Shown: one piece after another, positions 1-37,416 of the stretch
Position numbering within the stretch: the stretch's first letter is position 1
How the letters are laid out: the number at the start of each line of letters is the position of its first letter
Assembly (NCBI RefSeq): GCF_000378145.1
Contig: NZ_KB899298.1
Location: forward strand, 1-60,727
Source: Saccharibacillus kuerlensis DSM 22868
GTDB taxonomy: Bacteria > Bacillota > Bacilli > Paenibacillales > Paenibacillaceae
Length of the DNA: 60,727 bases
Direction of reading: 5' to 3'
Notes under the pieces: model-generated
What the model saw: only the letters and a program-made list of their open reading frames with translations
Database searches by the model: none
Told to the model about the DNA's origin: nothing
Program-made: the position numbers and the translations under genes

Positions 1-137
1 GGCAGGTTGCCTACGTGTTACTCACCCGTCCGCCGCTAAGTATCAGAGAAGCAAGCTTCTCATCAACTCCGCTCGACTTGCATGTATTAGGCATGCCGCC
101 AGCGTTCGTCCTGAGCCAGGATCAAACTCTCCATTAA
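1..137 (-). rRNA. 16S ribosomal RNA, 5' end (partial)
   Basis: The reverse strand reads the universal 16S start (GAGAGTTTGATCCTGGCTCAG), then the conserved GACGAACGCTGGCGGC stretch and the V1 region, and runs off the left edge. The mature 5' end is placed by comparison with Bacillus 16S, a few bases before GGAGAGTTTG. The V1 sequence, with its short hairpin around GAGAAGCTTGCTTCTC, fits Paenibacillaceae. It is the first gene of an rrn operon transcribed leftward. Confidence 0.97.
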
Positions 138-17910: not shown

Positions 17911-17984
17911 ATAGCAATTAAGAGTGGTTGCGCAGCCTACTGGGCCATTGCGTACTCGGAAAGCCTGGAATGGAGGTGAGCCGG

Positions 17985-18242
17985 ATGTGGGGGCTGGTTA
18001 TCAGTCTGATTATGGCGATCGTCATCGGATTTATCGGAGACGCATTGGCTGACAATATGATGCCGGGTGGGATCATAGGAGCCGCGATCGCCGGTCTTGC
18101 CGGTGCTTGGATCGGTAACCTGCTGTTTGGAAATTTTGGCCCGAACATTTCAGGATTCGCCATTATTCCGGCCGTATTAGGAACTGCAATCTTCGTCTTG
18201 ATTCTTGGACTCATTGCCAGACTGTTTAGACGTACAGCCTAG
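17985..18242 (+). CDS. GlsB/YeaQ/YmgE family stress membrane protein
   Basis: 85 aa, nearly all membrane: MWGLVISLIMAIVIGFIGDAL, GGIIGAAIAGLAGAWIGNLLFG and VLGTAIFVLILGLIARLF. The glycine-zipper spacing is typical of this transglycosylase-associated/GlsB family, induced by general stress in many bacteria. GGAGGTGA precedes the ATG at 17985. Confidence 0.9.
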   Translation: MWGLVISLIMAIVIGFIGDALADNMMPGGIIGAAIAGLAGAWIGNLLFGNFGPNISGFAIIPAVLGTAIFVLILGLIARLFRRTA

Positions 18243-18249
18243 AGGTTCA
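18224..18249 (+). promoter_or_regulatory. Weak candidate sigma-B-type promoter for the YtxH gene
   Basis: GTTTAG, a 14-nt spacer, GGTTCA. It overlaps the end of the upstream gene. The -10 is poor, so this is only a candidate. Confidence 0.22.
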
Positions 18250-18330
18250 ACTCATCCGACAGATGGAATGATCAATACAAATCGGTCTATGGCCGTACGG
18301 TACATGACTATACTTAAGGAGTGATTTCTC

Positions 18331-18981
18331 ATGAACGAAGCAGAAAGAGAATATCCGGCACAAAGCAGTACAACTTTCACTAAAGGCCTGTTGATTGGCG
18401 GACTGATCGGTGCGGCGGCAGCTCTGCTGTTTGCTCCTAAACCGGGACGCGATCTTCGCAGCGACCTTTCCGACAAAGTTGGAGTCGCGACAGACAAGAC
18501 TAAAGGCGTTGCCAGCACAATTGGTGTGAAAGCCAAAGACACGGCTTTCGTTGTAAGCGATAAAGCCAAATCCGCTGCAAGCGTAGTTGGCGGCAAAGCG
18601 ACAACTTTGGCACAAGCCGTATCCGAAAAAACATCGAATGTTGTTCAATCGGTACGTAAAAACAGCGAAGATGTTACCGAGTCTGTTAAAGATTCTTCTT
18701 CGGACGTAGGAGAAACGGTTAAAAAAGCTTCGGCAGATGTTGCAACCGAAGCTGCTAAAGCGGACAAAGAATTGATGCAGGAAACAGCCGATAAGGCTAA
18801 AGAAACCGGAGCTGAAGTTAAAGATTCCAACAATTCCGATTCCAGCAATTCTAACTCCAATAACTCTAATTCTAACTCTAATAACTCCAATTCCGGAAAC
18901 TCCGCTTCCAAGTCGGGTGCTCCTTCCAACTCCGGTTCAAATTCCGGCGCGCTGAACAATAACAGCAAGAGCACACTGTAA
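18331..18981 (+). CDS. YtxH family general-stress protein with Ser/Asn-rich tail
   Basis: 216 aa. The N-terminus has the YtxH signature: one membrane helix (GLLIGGLIGAAAALLFAP) followed by KPGRDLRSDL. The middle 100 residues are a Lys/Asp/Ala/Ser-rich apolipoprotein- or LEA-like amphipathic repeat region. The last 50 residues are almost entirely Ser, Asn and Gly. YtxH belongs to the sigma-B regulon in B. subtilis. A strong AAGGAGTG site precedes the ATG and a terminator follows. Confidence 0.9.
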   Translation: MNEAEREYPAQSSTTFTKGLLIGGLIGAAAALLFAPKPGRDLRSDLSDKVGVATDKTKGVASTIGVKAKDTAFVVSDKAKSAASVVGGKATTLAQAVSEKTSNVVQSVRKNSEDVTESVKDSSSDVGETVKKASADVATEAAKADKELMQETADKAKETGAEVKDSNNSDSSNSNSNNSNSNSNNSNSGNSASKSGAPSNSGSNSGALNNNSKSTL

Positions 18982-18999
18982 GGTATTGCTAAATTCTGA

Positions 19000-19025
19000 G
19001 CCGGCTTTTAAGCCGGCTTTTTTAT
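19000..19025 (+). terminator. Intrinsic terminator after ytxH-like gene
   Basis: GCCGGCTT / AAGCCGGC stem followed by T6. Confidence 0.85.
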
Positions 19026-19078
19026 TGGCAAACGACGATCCTATTTTTTGATTACCTTATAGAAAGTGGGGAAGCATC

Positions 19079-19513
19079 ATGGCAAACACAGAAACACGTC
19101 CGAATCAGGAGGACCCCTTTGCAAACGGCACAATCGAACAAAATGAAAAGACTCAAGATGGAAGCGTAAGGCCTCAAGATTTAGCCAAAGACCATCCTTT
19201 TGAGCTGCGACATGAAGTAACAAGATTAAACAAACAGTTGGAAGACATTTCAGTTGCTCTGCGAAAAGGCGACTTTAAAGATTTGATCGAAAATTACACC
19301 AACTGGAAAAGAAGACTCATCACCAATTTCACTGCAGGAATGGCCCGCGGTCTGGGACTTACCGTCGGTACAGTTGCCGTTATTGCCCTGTTGACCTGGA
19401 TCGCTTCAATTATGGCCAGCCTTGGTGTTCCTTATGTAAGTGGTTTTTTCGATTACATGGGCAGCTTGATCCAAGAAGGTCGTAACAACGGAACCAGCGG
19501 AAGCGGAGCCTGA
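19079..19513 (+). CDS. DUF5665 domain membrane protein
   Basis: 144 aa. A polar N-terminus is followed by the DUF5665 pattern LNKQLEDISVALRKGDFKDLIENYTNWKR, a conserved amphipathic helix (NFTAGMARGLGLTVG) and one membrane segment. Function is unknown. It sits in the stress block, convergent with sigB. Confidence 0.85.
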   Translation: MANTETRPNQEDPFANGTIEQNEKTQDGSVRPQDLAKDHPFELRHEVTRLNKQLEDISVALRKGDFKDLIENYTNWKRRLITNFTAGMARGLGLTVGTVAVIALLTWIASIMASLGVPYVSGFFDYMGSLIQEGRNNGTSGSGA

Positions 19514-19706: not shown

Positions 19707-20483
19707 TCATAAAGAAGAAGAAGAATTGGACATAATCTGTTTAAGCTTCTCGGTAGCCCGTTTCTGAATTCGAGACACGCTCATCTGAGAAACACCCAGC
19801 TTCTGCGCAATCGCTCGCTGCGACTGTCCTTCCTGGAAAGCAAGGAGCAGCACCTTTTGCTCCTGCTCCTTCAACTGACTGAGTGCCTGCTGAAGGTCCA
19901 TTCGCCGCTCGACAGTATCATAGTCGTTAACATCCGAGCTAATGAGTTCTCCGAGCGTTGCGGCGCTCTCTTCTTGAGAAAGCGGAGAATCGAGAGATAC
20001 ATAATGGTAGCATTCCCGTCCAGCCAATACTTCAACTGTTTCTTCTACGCTCAAATCCAGATATTGGGCAATTTCTTTAACGTCGGGCGAGCGCTCCAGA
20101 CGAACAGTAAGCTCGTCGATCGCCTGTTGGACCAACGCTCCTTTTTCCTTAATTCGTCTTGGCACCTGTATGTACCATGATTTGTCGCGTAAAAAGTTTT
20201 TCATGTGCCCAATCATACTTTTCATCGCATAAGGCTCAAAAGGAATACCTAATTGGATGTCGTACTGCTGAAGCAGACGAATTAATGCCATTTGACCAAC
20301 CTGATACAAGTCTTCGTAAAGATCGGGCCGGTTTCTGGCAATTTTGCCTGCGGCCATCTTGACCATCGGCTCGTACTTTTTGATAAGCACCGTGGCGATT
20401 TCGTTATCCTTGGTCTGTTGATACTCCCAGATCAAGGATACCGCTTCCGACATGGATTCAGGCGGGGTCACTTTATCATTCAT
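19707..20483 (-). CDS. sigB: RNA polymerase sigma factor, sigma-B family
   Basis: 258 aa with region 2 (LYEDLYQVGQMALIRLLQQYD), region 3 (VPRRIKEKGALVQQAIDELT) and region 4 helix-turn-helix (SQRAIAQKLGVSQMSVSRIQKRA). Length and pattern fit the sigma-B/F/G group, and the overlap with rsbW makes sigma-B the clear choice. It directs the general stress response and is held inactive by RsbW. The start overlaps the rsbW stop by ATGA, so translation is coupled. Confidence 0.93.
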   Translation of the reverse strand: MNDKVTPPESMSEAVSLIWEYQQTKDNEIATVLIKKYEPMVKMAAGKIARNRPDLYEDLYQVGQMALIRLLQQYDIQLGIPFEPYAMKSMIGHMKNFLRDKSWYIQVPRRIKEKGALVQQAIDELTVRLERSPDVKEIAQYLDLSVEETVEVLAGRECYHYVSLDSPLSQEESAATLGELISSDVNDYDTVERRMDLQQALSQLKEQEQKVLLLAFQEGQSQRAIAQKLGVSQMSVSRIQKRATEKLKQIMSNSSSSL

Positions 20484-20929
20484 ACTTTCTCCTCACTCCT
20501 GGTGAGACGCTTGGTCAATACGACCTGCGTTCCTTTTCCGCTCTCGCTGGCGACGCGTACGTCATCCATCAGAGCCTGCATTAGATAGAAACCCAGACCG
20601 CCGATTTCTACATCATGCAGTTCTTTGTTGTGCAGGGTTGGAGCGTCAGATGCCTCTTGCGACAGGGCGAAGCTTACGCCTTCATCCTTAACGGTAATCG
20701 TAAGTTCTTCTCCGTTGACGCCGAAGACAACTTCCACCAATCCTCCTTCCTGTCCATATGCATATAGAACCGAGTTATTGCAAGCTTCAGATACGGCAAC
20801 CTTCATATCCTCGATGTCCTCATAAGAAAAGCCCATCTTGGACGCGATTCCGTATAGGTTAAGCCGTACAATATCCACGTAGTCGGCAGTAGCCGGTAAG
20901 TTGAGAGTAACGGTTTGATCTGCTTTCAT
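20480..20929 (-). CDS. rsbW: Anti-sigma-B factor and serine kinase RsbW
   Basis: 149 aa GHKL kinase. N-box VSEACNNSVLYAYG and G-box KDEGVSF plus GGLGFYLMQALMDDV bind ATP. RsbW sequesters sigma-B and phosphorylates RsbV when ATP is high. It lies between rsbV (18 nt upstream) and sigB (4-nt overlap). Confidence 0.95.
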   Translation of the reverse strand: MKADQTVTLNLPATADYVDIVRLNLYGIASKMGFSYEDIEDMKVAVSEACNNSVLYAYGQEGGLVEVVFGVNGEELTITVKDEGVSFALSQEASDAPTLHNKELHDVEIGGLGFYLMQALMDDVRVASESGKGTQVVLTKRLTRSEEKV

Positions 20930-20947
20930 GCGTTGTTCGATCCTTTC

Positions 20948-21286
20948 CTATTGGGAATTCTCTTGGGGTTCAAAAAATTTAGCAATACCTGTCATGTCGA
21001 ACAGCTTTTGAATTTGTGTCGGCACTTCTTCTACACTGAACGAAGCGTTCATCGAATGCCGTGCTTTCAAAATGGACAGTAGAATCCCAATTCCTGTGCT
21101 GTCGATATACTTCAATTCTTTCAAATTGATTGCCAAGTCGACATCAGAATCCCCTACAAGTGGCTCCATAACGAGGCGGAAGTCCGGTGCTACGGATAAA
21201 TCAAGTTCTCCGCTCAGGTAGACGATGCTTCTGCCTTCTTCCGAAACCGTTCTAGCATTAAACTTGTCATTCTTATTTGTGGTCAT
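20948..21286 (-). CDS. rsbV: Anti-anti-sigma factor RsbV (STAS domain)
   Basis: 112 aa STAS domain. The phosphorylatable serine lies in LKYIDSTGIGIL. Unphosphorylated RsbV pulls RsbW off sigma-B. The ATG at 21286 is chosen because AGGGAGA lies 7 nt upstream; in-frame ATGs further out have no ribosome site. A candidate sigma-B promoter lies directly upstream. Confidence 0.94.
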   Translation of the reverse strand: MTTNKNDKFNARTVSEEGRSIVYLSGELDLSVAPDFRLVMEPLVGDSDVDLAINLKELKYIDSTGIGILLSILKARHSMNASFSVEEVPTQIQKLFDMTGIAKFFEPQENSQ

Positions 21287-21321
21287 AGACATTCTCCCTA
21301 AAAAAATGTTTTCTAAACTTA

Positions 21322-21347
21322 TTAAACTTAAACCAAGCGATTGAAAC
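21322..21347 (-). promoter_or_regulatory. Candidate sigma-B-type promoter of rsbV-rsbW-sigB
   Basis: Minus strand GTTTCA, a 14-nt spacer, GTTTAA, about 35 nt before rsbV. Position matches the autoregulated sigma-B promoter of B. subtilis, but the -10 agrees with GGGTAT in only half its bases. Confidence 0.35.
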
Positions 21348-21402
21348 GAAAGCTTGTCGATCACTTCGTACAGTCCATCATATTCTTGAAAAGAAAATCG
21401 GT

Positions 21403-23064
21403 TTAACGCACTGCCTTTTTGGTCGGATAATCACTGTAAGCAGACATATGGCGGGCGAGCACCTGCTTAACTCCAGCCATTTTGACCGGTTTGCTGATGT
21501 AATCGTCCATGCCTGCTTCTCTGCAGCGAGACTGAATATCGTTCATAACATTCGCTGTCATTGCCACAATTACCGGTCCGCTTTCACGAGAAAGCCGCGC
21601 CCGGATTCTTCTCGTCGCCTCTAAACCGTCCATAACCGGCATCTGCAGGTCCATAAACACATAATCGTACGAACGCTCGTTCAACATACGCAGTGCCTGT
21701 TCTCCGTCCTCCGCAGCATCGGCTGTGATGTCCATTTTCTGCAGCATGCTGACCATAAGCTTACGGTTAACCGGATGGTCATCCACAATCAGAACCGCTG
21801 TTGTCTGCATGCCTACATCTTCTCGCACAGATGTTAGAGACTCACCCCGAAACGGATTCGGCTCTTCTGGCCGGAAACAGCCGACTTGAATCGTAAAGAC
21901 AAAGGTTGCTCCCCCTTCGTCCATCGCTTCGACGCGAATATCTCCGCCCATCATTTCGACGAGTGTTTTGCAAATTGCCAAGCCCAGACCCGTACCGCCA
22001 TATTTTCTGGTCATGGAAGAATCGAGTTGAGAGAACGGTTGGAACAGCCGATTAATCTTCTCGGGTGAAATACCAATTCCGGTGTCTTTGACGGCAAATT
22101 CCAGCGTCATCCTGCCATCTTCTTCTCCGCGGCTCGAAACGACCAGATAAATGCCGCCGCGGTCGGTAAACTTAACGGCATTCGCTACCAGATTGATCAG
22201 TACCTGCCGCAGTCGAGCCATATCGCCGTACAGCAGTTCCGGCACCGAATCCTCTGTAAAGTATACCATTTCCAGATTCTTGCGTGTCGTTTCCATTGTA
22301 AATAGATTAAAAACTTCACCGATACAAGTTTTCAGTTCGAACGGATGCTCTTCCAGTTCCATTTTTCCGGATTCCATTTTGGTAAAGTCCAAGATGTCGT
22401 TGATCACGGTGACGAGCGCATCCGCACTGCCGCGAATAATCTCTGTATATTCCTTTTGTTCAGGCTTGAGTTCCGTTTCCATCAGCAGATCGATCATGCC
22501 GATAACTCCATTCATCGGCGTGCGAATTTCGTGGCTCATCATGGCCAAGAATTCCGTTTTCGCTTTAGCCGCGATCTCGGCAGCCTCTTTGGCCTTGATC
22601 AACTCCTCGTTGATCTTCTCCAGTTCCTGCGTTTTCTGATGCAGCAAAGCGGTCTGATCCTTCAAGCGCTTGTTAGCGAGATACATACTAACGAACCCTT
22701 CGATTTTGGACTTCAAAATCTGTGGGATAAATGGTTTCACCATATAGTCAATCGCGCCTGCCGAATAGCCCGCAAATAAATGCTCGGACTCTTTGCTGTT
22801 GGCAGAGATAAAGATAATGGGGATGTCTTTGGTCTTTTCTCTGGCCTTGACGAGCTTTGCGGTTTCTATTCCATCCATGCCGGGCATTTGGACATCAAGC
22901 ACAATAACCGCAAATTCGTCTTTTAGAAGGCAGCGCAGTGCTTCTTCGCCCGAAGTCGCTTTTACAAGCGTATAACGCTCGCTGCCCAGAACGGCTTCCA
23001 ACGCGAGCAAGTTCTCTGGACGATCGTCGACCAACAGGATATGAATCGGCTCTTGAACCACCAT
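21403..23064 (-). CDS. Hybrid histidine kinase (REC-HisKA-HATPase-REC)
   Basis: 553 aa, no membrane segment. Receiver 1 (about 1-125; [10 protein letters not shown], Lys in VKPF), a coiled coil (about 128-165), HisKA with H178 ([12 protein letters not shown]), HATPase ([25 protein letters not shown]) and receiver 2 (about 425-540; [10 protein letters not shown]). Having receivers on both sides suggests it accepts a phosphate or is controlled from another kinase, probably the 1225-aa kinase encoded two genes upstream. It lies between the CheR-like gene and rsbV, so a role in sigma-B control is inferred. I know no counterpart in the B. cereus RsbKMY system. Confidence 0.9.
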
Positions 23065-23082
23065 GGAATCCTCCTACACATT

Positions 23083-23952
23083 CTATTTAATCTTTCGGTA
23101 AATCTTCTCAACCCGATCTAGCGGCTCATAGCAATCACTGAAACGAGTGAAGTGGATGGACTCTTTGGAGCCGAGAACCAAAATACCAAAACGGCTTAGG
23201 CTCTCATAAAATAGTCCATGGACCTGATCCCGAAGTGTGTCATTGAAGTAAATCATAACGTTCCGGCAAAAAATAACATTGAATTCGTTGAAGGAGCGGT
23301 CTGTCGCCAAATTATGTTCAGCAAAAATGATATTTTTGCGCAAATAAGGCTGGAACATGACCGAATTATATTTGGCGGTATAGTAGTCGGAAAACGACTG
23401 CGTTCCTCCTGCATCCAAATAGTTCTTCGTATACAGCTTCATTTTCTCGATACCGTAAATGCCTTCTTTGGCCTGCTGAAGAGAGCGGTCGTTCATATCG
23501 GTTGCGTAAATACGCGCCTTATCATACAACCCTTCTTCATGCAGCAGAATAGCCATCGAGTATACTTCTTCCCCTGTAGAACAACCGGCATGCCAGATTC
23601 GAATATAGGGGTAGGTCCGCAGAATGGGTACAACTTCCCTGCGGAACGTTTTAAACAGTTCAGGATCACGAAACATTTCCGTAACCGGGATCGATAGGCT
23701 TTGCACCATACGTTCAAAGCAGGAACGGTCGTGCAGCACTTTGTCCTGCAATTGTGAAATTGTACTGAGATTTTCGGCATGAGCGTGATGCCAGATCCGC
23801 CGTACTAACGACGGCCTAGCATAATTCCGAAAATCGTATCCGTACATTCGATGCACGCCTTCAAGCAGAAGATCGCATTCGATCGTCTCAAGCTCTATGG
23901 CATCCGGTGTATTTTCCGATGAAGATTCTTCTTGAAACCTGTTGAATGTCAT
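23083..23952 (-). CDS. CheR-type protein-glutamate methyltransferase (RsbM-like)
   Basis: 289 aa. N-terminal CheR helix bundle (YGYDFRNYARPSLVRRI) and SAM-binding domain: IRIWHAGCSTGEEVYS, IYATDMNDRSLQQAKEGIY, FNVIFCRNVMIYF. No chemoreceptor genes are near. In B. cereus, RsbM is a CheR-type enzyme that methylates the hybrid kinase RsbK and damps sigma-B activation; the kinase gene here is directly upstream, so the same role is likely. The ATG at 23952 is chosen (GGGGCTGA upstream); a TTG at 24006 in frame is weaker. Confidence 0.85.
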   Translation of the reverse strand: MTFNRFQEESSSENTPDAIELETIECDLLLEGVHRMYGYDFRNYARPSLVRRIWHHAHAENLSTISQLQDKVLHDRSCFERMVQSLSIPVTEMFRDPELFKTFRREVVPILRTYPYIRIWHAGCSTGEEVYSMAILLHEEGLYDKARIYATDMNDRSLQQAKEGIYGIEKMKLYTKNYLDAGGTQSFSDYYTAKYNSVMFQPYLRKNIIFAEHNLATDRSFNEFNVIFCRNVMIYFNDTLRDQVHGLFYESLSRFGILVLGSKESIHFTRFSDCYEPLDRVEKIYRKIK

Positions 23953-24015
23953 AAATTCAGCCCCGATTACATAAAAAATCGTCTTTAATCTTTGTTTATT
24001 ACCCAAACTTTTGGT

Positions 24016-27000
24016 TTACGAATACAACCAGACACGCATTAACGAAAGAAGCTGTTCGGTTTGAATCGGTTTTTTGACATAATCCGATGCTCCGGCTTCA
24101 ATACACTTGCTTCGATCTTCCTTCATTGCCTTTGCCGTCAGTGCGATGATTGGGATTCGCTCGAATTTCGGCATCTGCCGAATACGGCGCATCGCTTCGT
24201 ATCCGTCCATCTCCGGCATCATCATATCCATTAGAATCAGATCAAATTCGCCTTGTTCTTCCAATGTCTCGATTGCTTCACGACCATTCTCAGCGAATGT
24301 GACATCCATCCGGTAGCTTTCAAGTACACTTGAAAGTGCGAATACGTTGCGAACGTCATCGTCAACGAGCAAAATTTTCTTGCCCTCGAACAGCGTTTCT
24401 TTATTATGAAGCTTCTGGAGGATCTGACGCTTGTCTTCCGGCAAATCCGCTTCGACCCGGTGCAGGAACAACGTTGTTTCGTCGAGCAGCCGCTCCGGCG
24501 ACTTGACGTCTTTGACGATAATCGACTCGGCGTACTGACGAAGTTTCGTTTCCTCTTTGGAATCCAGATCTTTGCCTGTGTAGATAATGATCGGAAGATC
24601 CCGTAGACGTTCATCTTCGCGAATACGATCAAGCATTTCAAAACCGGTCATATCCGACAGCATCAGATCGAGCACCATGCAATCATACCGATGCCGCTGC
24701 AATTCTTCAAGCGCCTGTGCCCCAGTGCCGACCGCCTTAATCGCGACATCGTCGTGACCGATCAGCTCAATGATTGCACCTCGCTGTGTTTCGTCGTCTT
24801 CTACAATCAATAGATGCTTCAGACCTTTGTCCGCGTAGGAACCGATATAAGAGAAAGCTCTTTCCAGCCCCTCTTTGTTCGCAGGCTTCTTCAGATAAGC
24901 AATAGCTCCCATCATTAATCCCTGCTTAACGTCATCGACAACCGATACAACATGTACCGGAATGTGACGGGTTTCCGAGCTGCTCTTCAACTCGCTCAGA
25001 ATCGTCCAACCGTCGATAACCGGCAGCTGGATATCCAGGATAATGGCATCAGGCATTTGGCTGCGCGCTGTCTCAAGACCCGTATCACCTTGAACCTCTA
25101 CAATTGCCTTGTATCCGTAGCTTCTTGCCATATCACGCAAAATAACAGCAAATTTCGGATCATCCTCAATAATCAATAAAACTTTATCTTGAGCGCCAAG
25201 ACTGTCACGATCGTCTTCGATTTGCGCCTGCTGCATTTTCGGCGGCAGCGCCTCAACCGCTGCAGGTTCTCTCCGGCGGAAAGACTCTCGTTCTTCGACG
25301 GAAGGATGAGCGGCGGAAGCTTCATGTTGTCCTACTTCTTCGCCTGGTGCGTAAGTCGTCAGCTTTGGAATGTAGAGAGTGAAGCGGCTTCCTTGACCCT
25401 CTTCACTTTCGAGCTCAATTCCGCCGCCAAGGAGCTTGGCCAGCTCGCGGCTGATCGACAATCCGAGCCCCGTTCCTCCATATTTCCGGCTGGTCGTACC
25501 GTCAACTTGCTGGAAGGCTTCAAAGATGATGTCCGTTTTATCGGAAGGAATACCGATTCCTGTATCGATAACGGAGAACTCGATGAACTTCCTCTTCTTC
25601 TCCAGATAATCCGGAAGCTGTTCAGGCTTCGCTTCGCGGACTCGGAAAGTAACGGAACCTTCGGAAGTAAACTTAAACGCATTGGACAATAAGTTGCGTA
25701 GAACCTGCTTAAGCCGATGACCGTCGGTCAATAAAGAATTTGGCAGATCCTTTGCATCCGCCTCAATATGAAGGTCAATTTCTTTCTTCTCTGCAACGGC
25801 AGCAAAGTTGTTGGATACGAACATTGTAATCTCTTCAAACGGCACCGGCTCGCGATTGAGTTCCATTTTGCCGGCATCGACTTTGGACAAATCAAGGATC
25901 TCATCAATCATCTTCAGCAGATCTGCGCCGGACATGTAAATCGTTTGGGCGTACTCTACTTGTTTCGGTGCCAGATTGCCATCCTTGTTCTCTGCCAGCA
26001 GCTGCGACAAAATCAGCAGGCTGTTGAGCGGCGTCCGCAGTTCATGCGACATGTTGGCCAAAAATTCCGACTTGTACTTGCTCGATACAGCAAGCTGCAT
26101 CGTCTGCCGTTCCAGCTGAACCCGCGCCAGTTCGACTTCGCGATTCTTCTCTTCGGTCTCATGCACTTGTTCTTCCAACGCTCTTGTTTTGGCAATAAGT
26201 TCGGTATTAAAGTGCTCCAATTCTTCCTGCTGCCGCTGCAGCAGCTCTTCCGAACGCTTAAGCGCTTCAGTCTGCGATTCGAGATTTTCATTCGAGCGCT
26301 TGAGCTCTTCCTGCTGAGTCTGCAGTTCTTCAGATTGACACTGCAGCTCTTCGGTAAGCGCCTGCGATTCGCGAAGCAGTTCTTCAACCCGAAGCCGTCC
26401 CTTGATATTATTCAGGATCACTCCCAAGTTAGACAGCAATTGATTCAGAAGCTGCCGCTGCAGTTCACTGAACGGCGTCAGCGAGGCGATCTCGAATACT
26501 CCGATCAATTCGTCTTCGGCCATAACTGGGCAAATCATAATTTGAGTCGATGGACTGTCACCGAGCGCTGAACGAATCTCGATATACTGCTGCGAAACGT
26601 CTTCAAGCACAATCTCACGGCGGTCTGCCGCACTTTGCCCCAGCAGTCCTTCTCCGATACGGAAAGACGTTTTCGCTGTCGGCTCATTGGCAAACGCGTA
26701 GGAGCCGTACAAATGCAGTTCATTCGCATTTGTCACGTCGGTTAAATACAAGGCTCCATATTCTGCGCCCAGAACCGGGGTGAACTCGCTGACAAAGGTT
26801 TGTGACACTTTTTCCAGCGACATAATGCCTCTAAGCACATCGGTAATGCGCGCCATATTAGAATTAATCCATGACTGATTATTTTGCGCTTCCGTATATT
26901 CGCGTTCTAAAGCCTGCTTATCTTCGATATCTTCAGCCATCTTTTGAAAAACAAGCGCCACATTGCCAATTTCGTCTTTGGACTTGACCTTGATCCGCCG

Positions 27001-27693
27001 GATCGCCTTCAACTTCCCTTTGCCGAAGCTTGCAATCATCATCGATACGGTGTTCAGACCTCGCGTTACAGTTGGTATAACCCACATCATGATCCCAAGC
27101 CCGGTTATCAAGCCGACAACGAGAAACGCCGTAGTAATTTGTGTGGAGCGCTGATAAGCTTCTTTGACGTTTGCGACTTCTTTTTCAACTTGAAGATCTT
27201 GAAAATTCGCCAATTCGTTCAGTGCAACCAATGCCGACCGCTGTACTTCGACACCTGTCGTATCCCGATAATCCTGGGCCTCCTCCAACTCTCCGTTCTC
27301 GATCAGCCGCATTAGCGTGGTCTCATAGGTTGAAAAGTTTTGCCAACCGGTCCCAACATTCTGAACATAACGTTGTTCTTCCGCCGAACCCTGCTCTTCC
27401 GTAATCAAGTTCCAATAACTTTGCGCAAGCCCTCTGGAATTTTCAATGGACAAACGACTTTCGGATAGAGCGGAAGCTTGACCGCCCAGCAGCTGATTGG
27501 ACAGCTCTGTAGCAATATTATTGACTTCGCCTCTCATTCCGCTGCTGTAACGAACCTTCATATAGCGATCTTCATAAACGCGGTCGATCTGGTCGTTCAT
27601 ATAGCTCATTCGATCGTAGCTCGCCAGCGACAGCGACAGCATAATGATCAGCAGCGCTGAAAAGCCTACGACCAGCTTAGTCTTTATCTTCAT
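24016..27693 (-). CDS. Giant membrane hybrid histidine kinase (RsbK-like)
   Basis: 1225 aa. TM1 (about 7-27), a four-helix-bundle extracellular sensor (28-185), TM2 (about 187-209), HAMP (210-262), GAF (285-430), long Glu/Gln-rich coiled coil (430-540), HisKA with H550 (NMSHELRTPLNS), HATPase (650-770; GGTGLGLSI) and three receivers at about 835-950, 958-1075 and 1104-1222, each with an intact Asp (IILDIQLP, MVLDLMLS, LMDMMMP). The layout TM-sensor-GAF-HK-REC fits RsbK, the stress sensor that signals to the phosphatase RsbY in B. cereus. Its ATG directly follows the stop codon of the rsbY-like gene. Three receivers make it unusually large. Confidence 0.92.
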   Translation of the reverse strand: MKIKTKLVVGFSALLIIMLSLSLASYDRMSYMNDQIDRVYEDRYMKVRYSSGMRGEVNNIATELSNQLLGGQASALSESRLSIENSRGLAQSYWNLITEEQGSAEEQRYVQNVGTGWQNFSTYETTLMRLIENGELEEAQDYRDTTGVEVQRSALVALNELANFQDLQVEKEVANVKEAYQRSTQITTAFLVVGLITGLGIMMWVIPTVTRGLNTVSMMIASFGKGKLKAIRRIKVKSKDEIGNVALVFQKMAEDIEDKQALEREYTEAQNNQSWINSNMARITDVLRGIMSLEKVSQTFVSEFTPVLGAEYGALYLTDVTNANELHLYGSYAFANEPTAKTSFRIGEGLLGQSAADRREIVLEDVSQQYIEIRSALGDSPSTQIMICPVMAEDELIGVFEIASLTPFSELQRQLLNQLLSNLGVILNNIKGRLRVEELLRESQALTEELQCQSEELQTQQEELKRSNENLESQTEALKRSEELLQRQQEELEHFNTELIAKTRALEEQVHETEEKNREVELARVQLERQTMQLAVSSKYKSEFLANMSHELRTPLNSLLILSQLLAENKDGNLAPKQVEYAQTIYMSGADLLKMIDEILDLSKVDAGKMELNREPVPFEEITMFVSNNFAAVAEKKEIDLHIEADAKDLPNSLLTDGHRLKQVLRNLLSNAFKFTSEGSVTFRVREAKPEQLPDYLEKKRKFIEFSVIDTGIGIPSDKTDIIFEAFQQVDGTTSRKYGGTGLGLSISRELAKLLGGGIELESEEGQGSRFTLYIPKLTTYAPGEEVGQHEASAAHPSVEERESFRRREPAAVEALPPKMQQAQIEDDRDSLGAQDKVLLIIEDDPKFAVILRDMARSYGYKAIVEVQGDTGLETARSQMPDAIILDIQLPVIDGWTILSELKSSSETRHIPVHVVSVVDDVKQGLMMGAIAYLKKPANKEGLERAFSYIGSYADKGLKHLLIVEDDETQRGAIIELIGHDDVAIKAVGTGAQALEELQRHRYDCMVLDLMLSDMTGFEMLDRIREDERLRDLPIIIYTGKDLDSKEETKLRQYAESIIVKDVKSPERLLDETTLFLHRVEADLPEDKRQILQKLHNKETLFEGKKILLVDDDVRNVFALSSVLESYRMDVTFAENGREAIETLEEQGEFDLILMDMMMPEMDGYEAMRRIRQMPKFERIPIIALTAKAMKEDRSKCIEAGASDYVKKPIQTEQLLSLMRVWLYS

Positions 27694-28860
27694 CTACTCA
27701 GCCGCTCCCTCTTTCAAAGAAATCCAGACCAGACACTTATCGTCGTCCTGTTCGGCATTGGCTTCGCCCTCGAAGAACACTTCCTCCATTCGCACTTTGT
27801 TAAAACCGTGCTCTCCCTGAAGATGACTGATCAGGAAACTCAGCTGTTCCTCTTGTTCGCCGTCCACCGCTTCCAGCAGGCCGTCGGTGTAGAGCACCAA
27901 GTGGCTGTCTCCGTCATAAGAGATCGTTTGCGGTTCGGCATCGATCCGGTCGAAAAGACCTACAGGATGAGAAGAACGCTGCAGACGGGCTACTTCATTG
28001 CTGCCGCGGAAAAGGAGCGCCGGAGGATGCCCTGCGTTGACGTAATCGATTCGCTTGAATCGTGTATCAACTACCATATAAATAGCCGTAAAATAGTATT
28101 GAATCAGCTGGTTTTCAATATGCAGTTGATTAAAACGACGGTTCAATTCCTGAATGACTTTTTCCGGTTCTACATAAGTCACTACCGTATCTTTGAGCAC
28201 CGAAGCAATAAACATGCAGAATAGCGACGAAGAGATGCCATGTCCCATCATATCCAGCAAGATGATACCATAACGTCCATCACCGAGCGGATACCAGGCA
28301 TACAAGTCACCGGCCAACTCAAATGAAGGTTTATACAAGGCATCAATCTCGATATGTCGATCATTGACAGGTAGACTCAATACCGCATTTTGCACCAAGG
28401 CTGCCAGCTTCAATTCATCCTGAATTCGCTGATCTCGTTCCTTGTGCCAGTCCTTCTCCTGCTTGAGCCGAAGCGCCAAACGAATCCGGGCCATCAGTTC
28501 AACTTTATTAATCGGTTTCGTTACATAGTCTCCAGCACCTGCATCGAGCGCTTCTGCCAGCTTTTTGGAGTCGCCCACAGCTGTAACCATAATAATAGGA
28601 ATATCGCGTAAATGTTCGTAAGTCTGCACGATCCGGCATGCTTCAATTCCATCCATTTCCGGCATCATCATATCCAGCAGAATCAAATCAATGTCGGAAT
28701 TTTTGGATTTGACCTGAGAATCCAGATTGGCAATACCCAGAATGGAAAACATTTCTCGGGCGGAAGAAGCGATCTCGATATTCCGATAATCTTCTTTTTT
28801 CAAAATCTCTCGAATGATAATGACATTGGTAGGATTGTCGTCGACAACTAAAATCTTCAT
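27694..28860 (-). CDS. Response regulator-PP2C phosphatase (RsbY/RsbU-like)
   Basis: 388 aa. N-terminal receiver (MKILVVDDNPTN; LLDMMMPEMDG; TKPI) and C-terminal SpoIIE/PP2C domain (GDLYAWYPLGDGRYG, LDMMGHGISSSLF, YVNAGHPPALLF, LVLYTDGLLEA). Such proteins dephosphorylate RsbV-P and so release sigma-B; the receiver-PP2C layout is that of RsbY in B. cereus, activated by RsbK. The start at 28860 has AGAGGGAGAGG upstream. It is the first gene of the seven-gene array ending in sigB. Confidence 0.9.
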   Translation of the reverse strand: MKILVVDDNPTNVIIIREILKKEDYRNIEIASSAREMFSILGIANLDSQVKSKNSDIDLILLDMMMPEMDGIEACRIVQTYEHLRDIPIIMVTAVGDSKKLAEALDAGAGDYVTKPINKVELMARIRLALRLKQEKDWHKERDQRIQDELKLAALVQNAVLSLPVNDRHIEIDALYKPSFELAGDLYAWYPLGDGRYGIILLDMMGHGISSSLFCMFIASVLKDTVVTYVEPEKVIQELNRRFNQLHIENQLIQYYFTAIYMVVDTRFKRIDYVNAGHPPALLFRGSNEVARLQRSSHPVGLFDRIDAEPQTISYDGDSHLVLYTDGLLEAVDGEQEEQLSFLISHLQGEHGFNKVRMEEVFFEGEANAEQDDDKCLVWISLKEGAAE

Positions 28861-29090: not shown

Positions 29091-29132
29091 ATAGATAAGG
29101 AATGGGACACAGGGTTCCCATTCCTTATCTAT
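29091..29132. other. Perfect 17-bp hairpin, no T-tract
   Basis: ATAGATAAGGAATGGGA pairs fully with TCCCATTCCTTATCTAT across the loop CACAGGGT. No U-run follows on either strand. It may end the leftward DUF4309-like transcript or be a processing element. Confidence 0.55.
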
Positions 29133-29434
29133 ACTTCGAATCCGCTAAACCGCGGCCAACATGTATAATCGATAACTAACTATTGAAAATTCGGCACTAA
29201 AGCAGCAATCAGAAAATTTCTCCGGCTCGAACTGTTTTTCATAATTAATCGACTCTTTTATAAGAATCTTAATGTTTGCAATAAGTTTTTAAAATTCACT
29301 TTCAACCAGCAAAGGTTTATTTTGAACCTAAAACGTTATTTACCCTGCCAGAAAGGGAATGAAACAAAAAAATAAAAATAAAATCAAAAATAAATTTAAA
29401 ATTATAAAATTCTTTGAAATTAATTTGTATTGAA

Positions 29435-30138: not shown

Positions 30139-30663
30139 TTAGCGGCGGAACTTTTGCCAAAGTGAAGCACCTGTGTCAACCCATTTTACGATTTTCTGTA
30201 CGCCGCCGTTTTGACCGTTTCCGTTACCATATGTGGCATTGTAAGTACGTACGGTCTTACTCTCGCCTGACGCGGGCAGTAGCGCTGCGTCTCCGCCTTC
30301 ACGCTTCTCTTGTTCTTTCTTCTCTTTATGATGTTTGGCTTTCTCAATCATCCGGTGCGAGTACTGCTGAGTCACCAGCGTCACTTCATTAAGAAGTTGT
30401 CCCAGGTTCTTTACCGATTCCATAACAGGATCAAGCTGCTTCAACTTATGGTTGGCATCCAATGTAATATCGTTGGTATGCCGCACAACCTGTTTAACTT
30501 CGTAAGTCAGCTCATCCATCGTTTTTTGAACTTCTTTCAACGTTTCCGCCGTGTTTTCCAGCGTCTTGGTACCGGCCTGCAGTGTTTTGATCAAAAATAC
30601 GACAAGCACTGCAAAAGCTACAGCCACGATAAGTAAAGCCCATTGCCACAATTCCACATTCAA
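30139..30663 (-). CDS. DUF948 general-stress protein (YtxG-like)
   Basis: 174 aa. One N-terminal membrane helix (WALLIVAVAFAVLVVFLI) is followed by a long coiled coil (LENTAETLKEVQKTMDELTY) typical of DUF948, then a Lys/Glu-rich linker and a glycine/asparagine patch. In B. subtilis the YtxG member belongs to the sigma-B regulon. A convincing sigma-B-type promoter lies 88 nt upstream. Confidence 0.88.
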   Translation of the reverse strand: MNVELWQWALLIVAVAFAVLVVFLIKTLQAGTKTLENTAETLKEVQKTMDELTYEVKQVVRHTNDITLDANHKLKQLDPVMESVKNLGQLLNEVTLVTQQYSHRMIEKAKHHKEKKEQEKREGGDAALLPASGESKTVRTYNATYGNGNGQNGGVQKIVKWVDTGASLWQKFRR

Positions 30664-30750: not shown

Positions 30751-30776
30751 TTACCCTGAGCTTTTTGACACGAAAC
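30751..30776 (-). promoter_or_regulatory. Sigma-B-type promoter of the DUF948 gene
   Basis: Minus strand GTTTCG, a 14-nt spacer, GGGTAA. This closely fits the sigma-B consensus GTTTAA-N12-15-GGGTAT, and the gene belongs to a known general-stress family. Confidence 0.7.
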
Positions 30777-37192: not shown

Positions 37193-37383
37193 CCGGTGAT
37201 GAGGTAGAGGTTGCGGTGGCGATCAGTACACCGGCGGAGGCGCAGCAGAGCGCTTATAATGCCGGCTTGGAAAGGCGCACCCGCCGAAGTACGAACTTCT
37301 TCTGCCTGAAGTTTGTGCTGGGGCCGTCTCCGAAAGGAACGGAACTGTCATCCGCCGCAAAGCGGATGTTGAGCTATCTTCAC
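37193..37383 (+). promoter_or_regulatory. Lysine riboswitch (L-box)
   Basis: The conserved L-box elements occur in order: GAGGTAGAGG (37201), AGTA, GGAAAGG, CCGAAGTA, CTGGGGCCG, GGAACTGTCATCCGCC and GCTATC closing P1. P1 pairs GTGATGAGGTAG with CTATCTTCAC. An intrinsic terminator and then the lysine permease gene follow, so lysine should switch off expression by premature termination. The antiterminator helix was not worked out. Confidence 0.94.
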
Positions 37384-37416
37384 GAAACGAAGCGTTTACG
37401 ATGCGGATTTTGCCCT

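Follow-up and report, generated by a model that had tools for sequence, protein, structure and literature searches.

An RsbK/RsbM/RsbY-type sigma-B input module of Saccharibacillus kuerlensis with a putative receiver-controlled second kinase

The closest described counterpart of the system considered here is the RsbK-RsbM-RsbY module of Bacillus cereus, which, in the passages of PMC4574943 that deal with it, comprises a membrane hybrid kinase with GAF, S-helix and HisKA regions and a C-terminal receiver (REC), a methyltransferase, a phosphatase joining a receiver to a PP2C domain, and the RsbV/RsbW/sigma-B partner switch. All these parts recur in a seven-gene array of Saccharibacillus kuerlensis DSM 22868, located in a stretch of 60,727 nucleotides of contig NZ_KB899298.1 that was analysed as a whole (the window). 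Compared with the B. cereus proteins as presented there (PMC4574943), RsbK of the window carries a 4HB_MCP rather than a CHASE3 sensor and three receivers rather than one, and an additional histidine kinase (HK) with the domain order REC-HK-REC, called HK2 below, is encoded between rsbM and rsbV. RsbKY and RsbM have also been reported in two genomes of Paenibacillus spp., which belong to the same bacterial family and probably have the same locus type; the relevant passages of that report list gene presence and contain no mention of a second kinase or of extra receivers (PMC9847131). The initial annotation of the window, which took the array not to be a described system, has to be narrowed for RsbKY/RsbM and may hold for HK2. 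The literature searched, to which de Been et al. 2011 did not belong, contained no account of HK2 or of the number of RsbK receivers. The latter survey is said to cover RsbK homologues, Paenibacillus included, together with their gene context.

We read the array as an input module of the RsbK/RsbM/RsbY type that serves a SigB-like factor and has been extended by a second kinase under the control of its receiver; RsbK would act on the N-terminal receiver of HK2 and HK2 on RsbY, an interpretation to which we incline by a narrow measure. It draws on gene order, domain composition, conservation, catalytic residues and the correlated decay that accompanies loss of RsbK. The receiver of HK2 decays once RsbK is gone, while the kinase core stays under selection beside rsbY and rsbV. 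The simplest account would be a signal from RsbK to the receiver of HK2 and from HK2 to RsbY.

The array and its conservation in the family

The seven genes lie on the minus strand, from the rsbY ATG to the sigB stop codon (19707-28860), in the order rsbY-rsbK-rsbM-HK2-rsbV-rsbW-sigB and in an operon-like layout, in which rsbK directly adjoins rsbY, sigB shares 4 nt with rsbW, and gaps of 18 nt and 116 nt separate rsbM from HK2 and HK2 from rsbV. The rsbY-like gene (27694..28860) encodes a phosphatase of 388 amino acids (aa) with a receiver (phospho-Asp D63) and a PP2C domain of the SpoIIE type, both recognized by Pfam models. The rsbK-like gene (24016..27693) encodes a membrane hybrid kinase of 1225 aa, composed, according to Pfam, of 4HB_MCP, GAF, a long helical region that by analogy would represent the S-helix, HisKA, HATPase and three receivers (24034..25188), delimited with our own hidden Markov models (HMMs) as REC1 (24844-25188, D887), REC2 (24460-24822, D1009) and REC3 (24034-24378, D1156). 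It is followed by the gene of an rsbM-like CheR methyltransferase of 289 aa (23083..23952), whose Pfam CheR_N and CheR domains were scanned on the longer open reading frame (ORF), and by HK2 (21403..23064), a soluble kinase of 553 aa in which Pfam finds an N-terminal receiver (22693-23043, D57), HisKA (22366-22563), the catalytic HATPase domain (CA; 21886-22227) and a C-terminal receiver (21463-21795, D472). Both kinases keep the H box (H550 in RsbK, H178 in HK2). The 19-residue hydropathy maximum of HK2 is 1.09, with no membrane-like segment, and such segments of RsbK begin near residues 3 and 190. The starts of rsbY (ATG 28860), rsbM (23952) and rsbV (21286) were chosen from the sequence, the longest ORFs being longer; that of rsbM begins at 24006.

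The partner switch consists of an rsbV-like STAS anti-anti-sigma factor (20948..21286; Pfam STAS, TIGR00377 over its cut-off), in which S63 of the IDSTGIG motif is, by analogy, the expected phosphoserine, the anti-sigma kinase RsbW of 149 aa (20480..20929; HATPase_c_2) and a sigma factor of 258 aa with Pfam sigma-70 regions 2, 3 and 4 (19707..20483). RsbW passed the NCBIfam RsbW model PRK04069 (162.9 bits, cut-off 145) and missed TIGR01924 (137.7, cut-off 155.05). The best NCBIfam models of the sigma factor are SigB/F/G and SigB, though it stayed below both cut-offs (205.4 against 234.35, and 203.8 against 315 for the SigB equivalog TIGR02941), and it is therefore called SigB-like. ORFs and Pfam domains agree with the initial annotation in the seven genes, their single strand and order, the six receivers (all of which have the phospho-Asp), the cytosolic REC-HK-REC architecture of the second kinase, and the resemblance of phosphatase, kinase and methyltransferase to RsbY, RsbK and RsbM of B. 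cereus. With a sensor-GAF-HisKA-HATPase-receiver kinase, an adjoining CheR gene and a REC-PP2C gene in an rsbV-rsbW-sigma cluster, the module can be regarded as a variant of that of B. cereus, a likeness drawn from domains and gene order.

The comparison started from 197 family genomes, 16 of them from the genus Saccharibacillus (the window's included); among the 181 others the 120 best RsbW matches were taken and 61 left out, a choice that favours window-like modules, so that 136 loci were available. Named loci, the best 80 of a longer list, seem to repeat some sampled genomes and are hence kept outside the counts. Receivers and CheB domains were called with our own HMMs, which divergent ones may escape. 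The same array was found in 16/16 genus genomes, which places it beyond chance, and an identical domain order in 55 of the 120 further loci. HK2 or a derivative of it lies upstream of rsbV in 100 of the 136 loci, with the H box kept in every one and a gap to rsbV below 400 nt in 96 (median of the 100, 86 nt), so that the conservation of HK2 next to rsbV in relatives, which the initial annotation had named as a check, was borne out. Among the matches listed, the closest named HK2 locus is that of Saccharibacillus qingshengii, at 88% identity.

Of the 136 loci, 97 have rsbK locally: 90 carry both rsbK and HK2 and seven rsbK only; a further ten loci have HK2 only. Wherever both genes are present (90/90), the N-terminal receiver of HK2 has its acidic pair and Asp intact. 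In 71 of the 136 loci HK2 has a C-terminal receiver, always beside a three-receiver RsbK (71/71); HK2 without this receiver accompanies a three-receiver RsbK in five loci and a two-receiver RsbK in 14, and five loci combine a one-receiver RsbK with no HK2, as in B. cereus. Judged by residue pattern, two-receiver RsbKs are without REC1 and one-receiver RsbKs retain a REC3-like receiver. Acidic pair and Asp of REC1 and REC3 are conserved in 77/77 three-receiver RsbKs; the acidic pair of REC2 is altered in five of them, three of which also miss the phospho-Asp (the Thr/Ser and Lys columns of REC2 and of the C-terminal receiver of HK2 were misaligned and hence excluded). A strict rule by which extra RsbK receivers need HK2 was rejected, and the link between the additional RsbK receivers and the second kinase that had been drawn at first has exceptions: in L228 a three-receiver RsbK stands without HK2, and two of the named loci, L035 and L037, combine a one-receiver RsbK with HK2, which in L037 has a C-terminal receiver.

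When an HK2 orthologue was sought elsewhere in HK2-less RsbK genomes (cut-off 1e-60), G170, G195, G143 and G156 yielded nothing beyond matches of 35-39% to kinase-receiver parts, and G183 and G136 gave 45-46% matches that omit the N-terminal receiver. REC-HK-REC proteins at 48-53% to HK2 are encoded away from the sigma locus in G189, G163, G177 and G129, and their genes (G189:C30, G163:C1, G177:C9 and G129:C1) are at most several kb away from those of giant RsbK-like kinases (1842-1917 aa). In another three loci (L239, L244 and L245) rsbY and rsbM are kept at the sigma locus and no rsbK was found there (spacing checked for L239).

HK2 where rsbK is missing, and the proposed cascade

The correlated decay was followed in the genus g18, in which 38 of the 40 genomes searched have RsbW and 38 loci were examined (the 21 of the family sample plus an additional 17). 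The other two genomes, G202 and G211, gave no RsbW match at E 1e-30 and possibly have no module at all. Thirty-seven loci are assessable, L270 being on a short contig and uncounted, with RsbK on another contig of its genome. In the 23 with rsbK, the acidic pair and Asp of the N-terminal receiver are present without exception, as read from the alignment for 12 loci and directly from the sequences for 11. The remaining 14 carry neither rsbK nor rsbM, and a search of these 14 genomes with RsbK residues 1-566 returned only HisKA-sized matches or sensor-part matches of 19-23% identity. HK2 is gone from seven of the 14 and receiver-less in five; in L190 the Asp of its N-terminal receiver is replaced by Asn and the acidic pair is altered, and L279 is taken up below. 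The C-terminal receiver is absent from all seven surviving HK2s. The five receiver-less HK2s retain the H, N and G boxes (by eye), are positioned between rsbY and rsbV, and show ratios of nonsynonymous to synonymous substitution rates (dN/dS) of 0.15-0.19 (5 of 10 pairs tested). In the trees, one of which comprised 133 of the 136 rows (L225, L233 and L242 left out), the loci that lost RsbK are nested among full-array relatives. In the kinase tree, L190 groups with g18 and the placed receiver-less HK2s fall within the sigma-linked HK2 group; these kinases have likely decayed in place. Conversely, in four g6 loci without a local rsbK, rsbM is retained and the HK2 receiver is canonical; away from the locus, each of these genomes has a gene for an RsbK-like protein (930-939 aa, 28-29% identity), a case that agrees with coupling between RsbK and the HK2 receiver.

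From these observations a cascade can be proposed in which a stress signal would reach RsbK, whose coiled-coil region would be tuned by RsbM methylation. RsbK would then phosphorylate D57 in the N-terminal receiver of HK2, this receiver would gate ATP-driven autophosphorylation at H178, and HK2 would phosphorylate D63 of the RsbY receiver, beside or in place of direct transfer from RsbK. Activated RsbY would dephosphorylate RsbV, which would capture RsbW and free the sigma factor. REC1 and REC2 of RsbK and the C-terminal receiver of HK2 would most likely be internal brakes or phosphate sinks, being read as brakes because the RsbK receiver of B. cereus is inhibitory. What we infer comprises each transfer of phosphate, whether it activates or inhibits, the methylation and the sigma-B output. 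Residues of helix alpha1, at positions we take to set specificity as in other two-component pairs, read TNIIEI in RsbY and ENALAV in the HK2 N-terminal receiver (71/71 each); they were rejected as evidence, being no more invariant than random column sets (fractions 0.060, 0.077 and 0.102), and a switch of RsbY specificity on HK2 loss was likewise discarded, the residues tracking lineage and not HK2 presence. According to the pertinent passages of PMC12143880, N-terminal domains have been proposed, as a general principle, to control PP2C phosphatases by way of a helical linker.

Apart from both outcomes on alpha1, several findings weigh against such a cascade. L279, without RsbK, retains the receiver Asp, though its switch region and alpha1 are altered. 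HK2 may simply be on its way out, since seven of the 14 genomes without RsbK have lost it and it evolves under weaker constraint, with the dN/dS given above compared with 0.04-0.06 in three full-length pairs whose dS approaches saturation. The losses of RsbK number one to three (parsimony asks for at least two changes, and the approximately unbiased test does not reject a single clade, p-AU 0.233), so that the argument from natural knockouts rests on few events. The kinase tree places three of the five receiver-less HK2s by g12 HK2s, apart from their g18 relatives (support 87, long branch); HK2 lies 0.9-3.0 kb from rsbV in four g12 loci (L213, L219, L220 and L226) and is split into two ORFs in L220. 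Moreover, RsbK operates without HK2 in other lineages (7/97 RsbK loci, and B. cereus), and the RsbK-like protein of the g6 genomes may be a paralogue.

The same observations bear on the other ways of connecting these proteins. RsbK and HK2 might phosphorylate RsbY independently, with another kinase feeding the N-terminal receiver of HK2; modules with RsbK only (the 7/97 just mentioned) or HK2 only do exist, so each kinase can stand alone, and RsbY alpha1 residues are unaltered by the presence of HK2. Such parallel inputs are nevertheless unlikely, as decay or loss of the receiver was seen only in RsbK-less genomes, which ties it to RsbK, and it is not obvious what would feed a receiver-less HK2. 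Slightly less probable again is that HK2 acts as a brake on RsbK or phospho-RsbY, as a phosphatase or phosphate sink, with the extra receivers of RsbK as its counterparts. The inhibitory receiver of B. cereus RsbK (in the passages of PMC4574943 on its removal) and the confinement of C-receiver HK2s to three-receiver RsbKs among the 136 loci speak for a brake, whereas purifying selection on the kinase core after RsbK loss would be unexpected were RsbK its sole target, and L035 and L037 pair HK2 with a one-receiver RsbK.

The initial annotation had envisaged a multi-step relay feeding RsbV, which does not fit the proteins: RsbV is a STAS protein and not a receiver, by family a substrate of RsbW and of the phosphatase, and the output receiver is that of RsbY. 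A classical multi-step relay requires a histidine step between receivers, and no Hpt (histidine phosphotransfer) domain was found in the cluster by Pfam, which leaves such a relay unsupported. A His-Asp-His-Asp route by way of an unlinked Hpt protein or the histidine of HK2 itself could make use of the six receivers and two kinases, and four unlinked Hpt matches were found elsewhere in the genome, one of them in a soluble 558-aa HK-REC-Hpt protein (domains by eye). This route is nonetheless highly improbable, given the cluster without Hpt, the missing REC2 phospho-Asp in 3/77 RsbKs, and the constitutive sigma-B activity that follows removal of the B. cereus RsbK receiver, activation instead of the block a relay would predict and read as evidence against a relay in that part of the report (PMC4574943).

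If the cascade from RsbK through HK2 to RsbY is true, the few known routes of sigma-B activation gain a two-kinase input, and the array would show how amplification or filtering of a stress pathway can be achieved in the absence of an Hpt protein. The role of the RsbK receiver is called open in the corresponding passage of PMC4574943, as is the regulation of REC-controlled kinases in that of PMC13269768; the natural variants at hand (RsbK without HK2, HK2 without RsbK, and HK2 with no, a dead or an intact receiver) make the role of each receiver directly testable.

Upstream region and flanking genes

A motif search revealed candidate sigma-B-type promoters of the form GTTTC-N15-GGGTAA on the minus strand, one upstream of rsbY and the array (29340..29365) and one upstream of a DUF948 (ytxG-like) gene (30751-30776). 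The form GTTTC-N15-GGGTAW was picked after these two sites had been seen, and a window-wide motif search yielded 7 matches where 8.47 were expected. Of 118 loci, 44 have the form no more than 1 kb upstream of rsbY, where shuffles predict 0.1; its spacing is 15 in 42 of the 44, and it precedes rsbY in 17 of the 71 full arrays. A looser form was found upstream of the DUF948 gene in 80/117 loci (0.5 expected) and upstream of rsbV in 12/134 (0.6 expected); none of these counts is made of independent cases, the loci sharing ancestry. In the genome of the window itself, the strict form has 7 sites against 4 for the reversed control. The sigma-B consensus of B. subtilis is given as GTTTAA-N15(+/-2)-GGGTAT in the passage of PMC9847131 concerned; its -35 element, GTTTAA, differs from that of the candidates here, and the GTTTA form was dismissed as a candidate, being found in only 1/95 rsbY and 5/95 rsbV upstream regions. 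The pattern suggests that the array may be autoregulated.

Between this promoter and rsbY, 7 of 10 aligned genus leaders contain a small coding sequence after the promoter position, which, where ORFs were listed, encodes a stress protein with a YflT domain (about 113-115 aa); the window has only a decayed remnant of it (about 29140-29340, minus strand). A perfect 13-nt inverted repeat, GATAAGGAATGGG/CCCATTCCTTATC, also lies between promoter and rsbY (29094-29129), both arms being present in the ten aligned genus leaders, and is a candidate terminator or operator. A spacing-limited pattern of this repeat occurs at one place per genome in 6/16 genomes and misses the copy of the window, whose spacer is longer.

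The genes on either side (17928-19513, plus strand, and 30139-30663, minus strand) include those of Transgly_assoc, YtxH, DUF5665 and DUF948 proteins, and the B. subtilis homologues of some of these are presumably general stress genes. Spo0A is present in 16/16 genus genomes, and no SpoIIAB above cut-off was found in these 16, the best matches being the RsbW genes; possibly, the sporulation sigma-F switch has been lost in the genus. The window further contains a lysine riboswitch (Rfam RF00168, 101.4 bits; 37197-37384, plus strand) and, cut by its end, the start of a 16S rRNA gene (1-137, minus strand).

Comparison with other kinase cassettes and cascades

Trios of a hybrid kinase, CheR and a REC-HK(-REC) kinase are found in Cohnella (L082), in Paenibacillus pinihumi (L042) and in seven loci of other phyla (L038, L044, L045, L047, L048, L053 and L060). 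Their hybrid kinases are GAF-HK proteins with two or three receivers, as in RsbK; no rsbV-, rsbW- or sigB-like gene was found in the sampled stretch, and all seven other-phylum loci have CheB. By our own CheB model, there is none in 136/136 sigma-linked stretches, the two CheB genes of the window's genome lying elsewhere. A quickly built kinase tree unites RsbK and the hybrid kinases of the trios in one group (support 99) and the Paenibacillaceae HK2s, those of L042 and L082 included, in another (97); it does not unite the second kinases from other phyla with HK2 in one group. A more general proposal, which we hold with about equal belief and doubt, the doubt slightly ahead, is that a general stress sigma factor of the Paenibacillaceae is governed by two kinases in series: a hybrid kinase of the membrane, open to methylation, would turn on or turn off a soluble kinase gated by its receiver, and the latter would drive the REC-PP2C phosphatase, a design free of Hpt that would have come from the coupling of a hybrid kinase-CheR-REC-HK cassette to a partner switch and would shrink in a predictable order after loss of the first kinase.

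In Leptospira, according to the passages on these proteins, LvrA phosphorylates the receiver of LvrB and raises its autokinase activity (PMC5863495), and LvrB phosphorylates LvrC, whose output domain is RsbW-like (PMC13269768). The Leptospira pathway, with an anti-sigma-like protein as its output, would share with the proposed cascade a hybrid kinase acting on the N-terminal receiver of a soluble REC-HK protein, whose activity rises in Leptospira. HK2 resembles LvrB in having an N-terminal receiver joined to the dimerization and catalytic (DHp-CA) core of a kinase with no membrane segment, and its residues 36-399 align with the LvrB structure 8vc9 over REC and kinase (phmmer, E 1.2e-14). The Leptospira output LvrC is, on the other hand, REC-RsbW-like and not REC-PP2C, LvrB is without a C-terminal receiver, and the passages in question mention no CheR gene (PMC5863495, PMC13269768). 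Similarly, in the part of PMC3868531 on Rhodospirillum centenum, CheA3 phosphorylates a receiver of CheS3, which derepresses cyst formation, and only CheS3 phosphorylates CheY3. There one kinase controls another via a receiver and only the second phosphorylates the output receiver, although the upstream kinase is of the Che type and no sigma-factor partner switch is involved (PMC3868531). Together, LvrA-LvrB and CheA3-CheS3 provide precedents for both steps of the cascade proposed for RsbK, HK2 and RsbY, in each case without Hpt.

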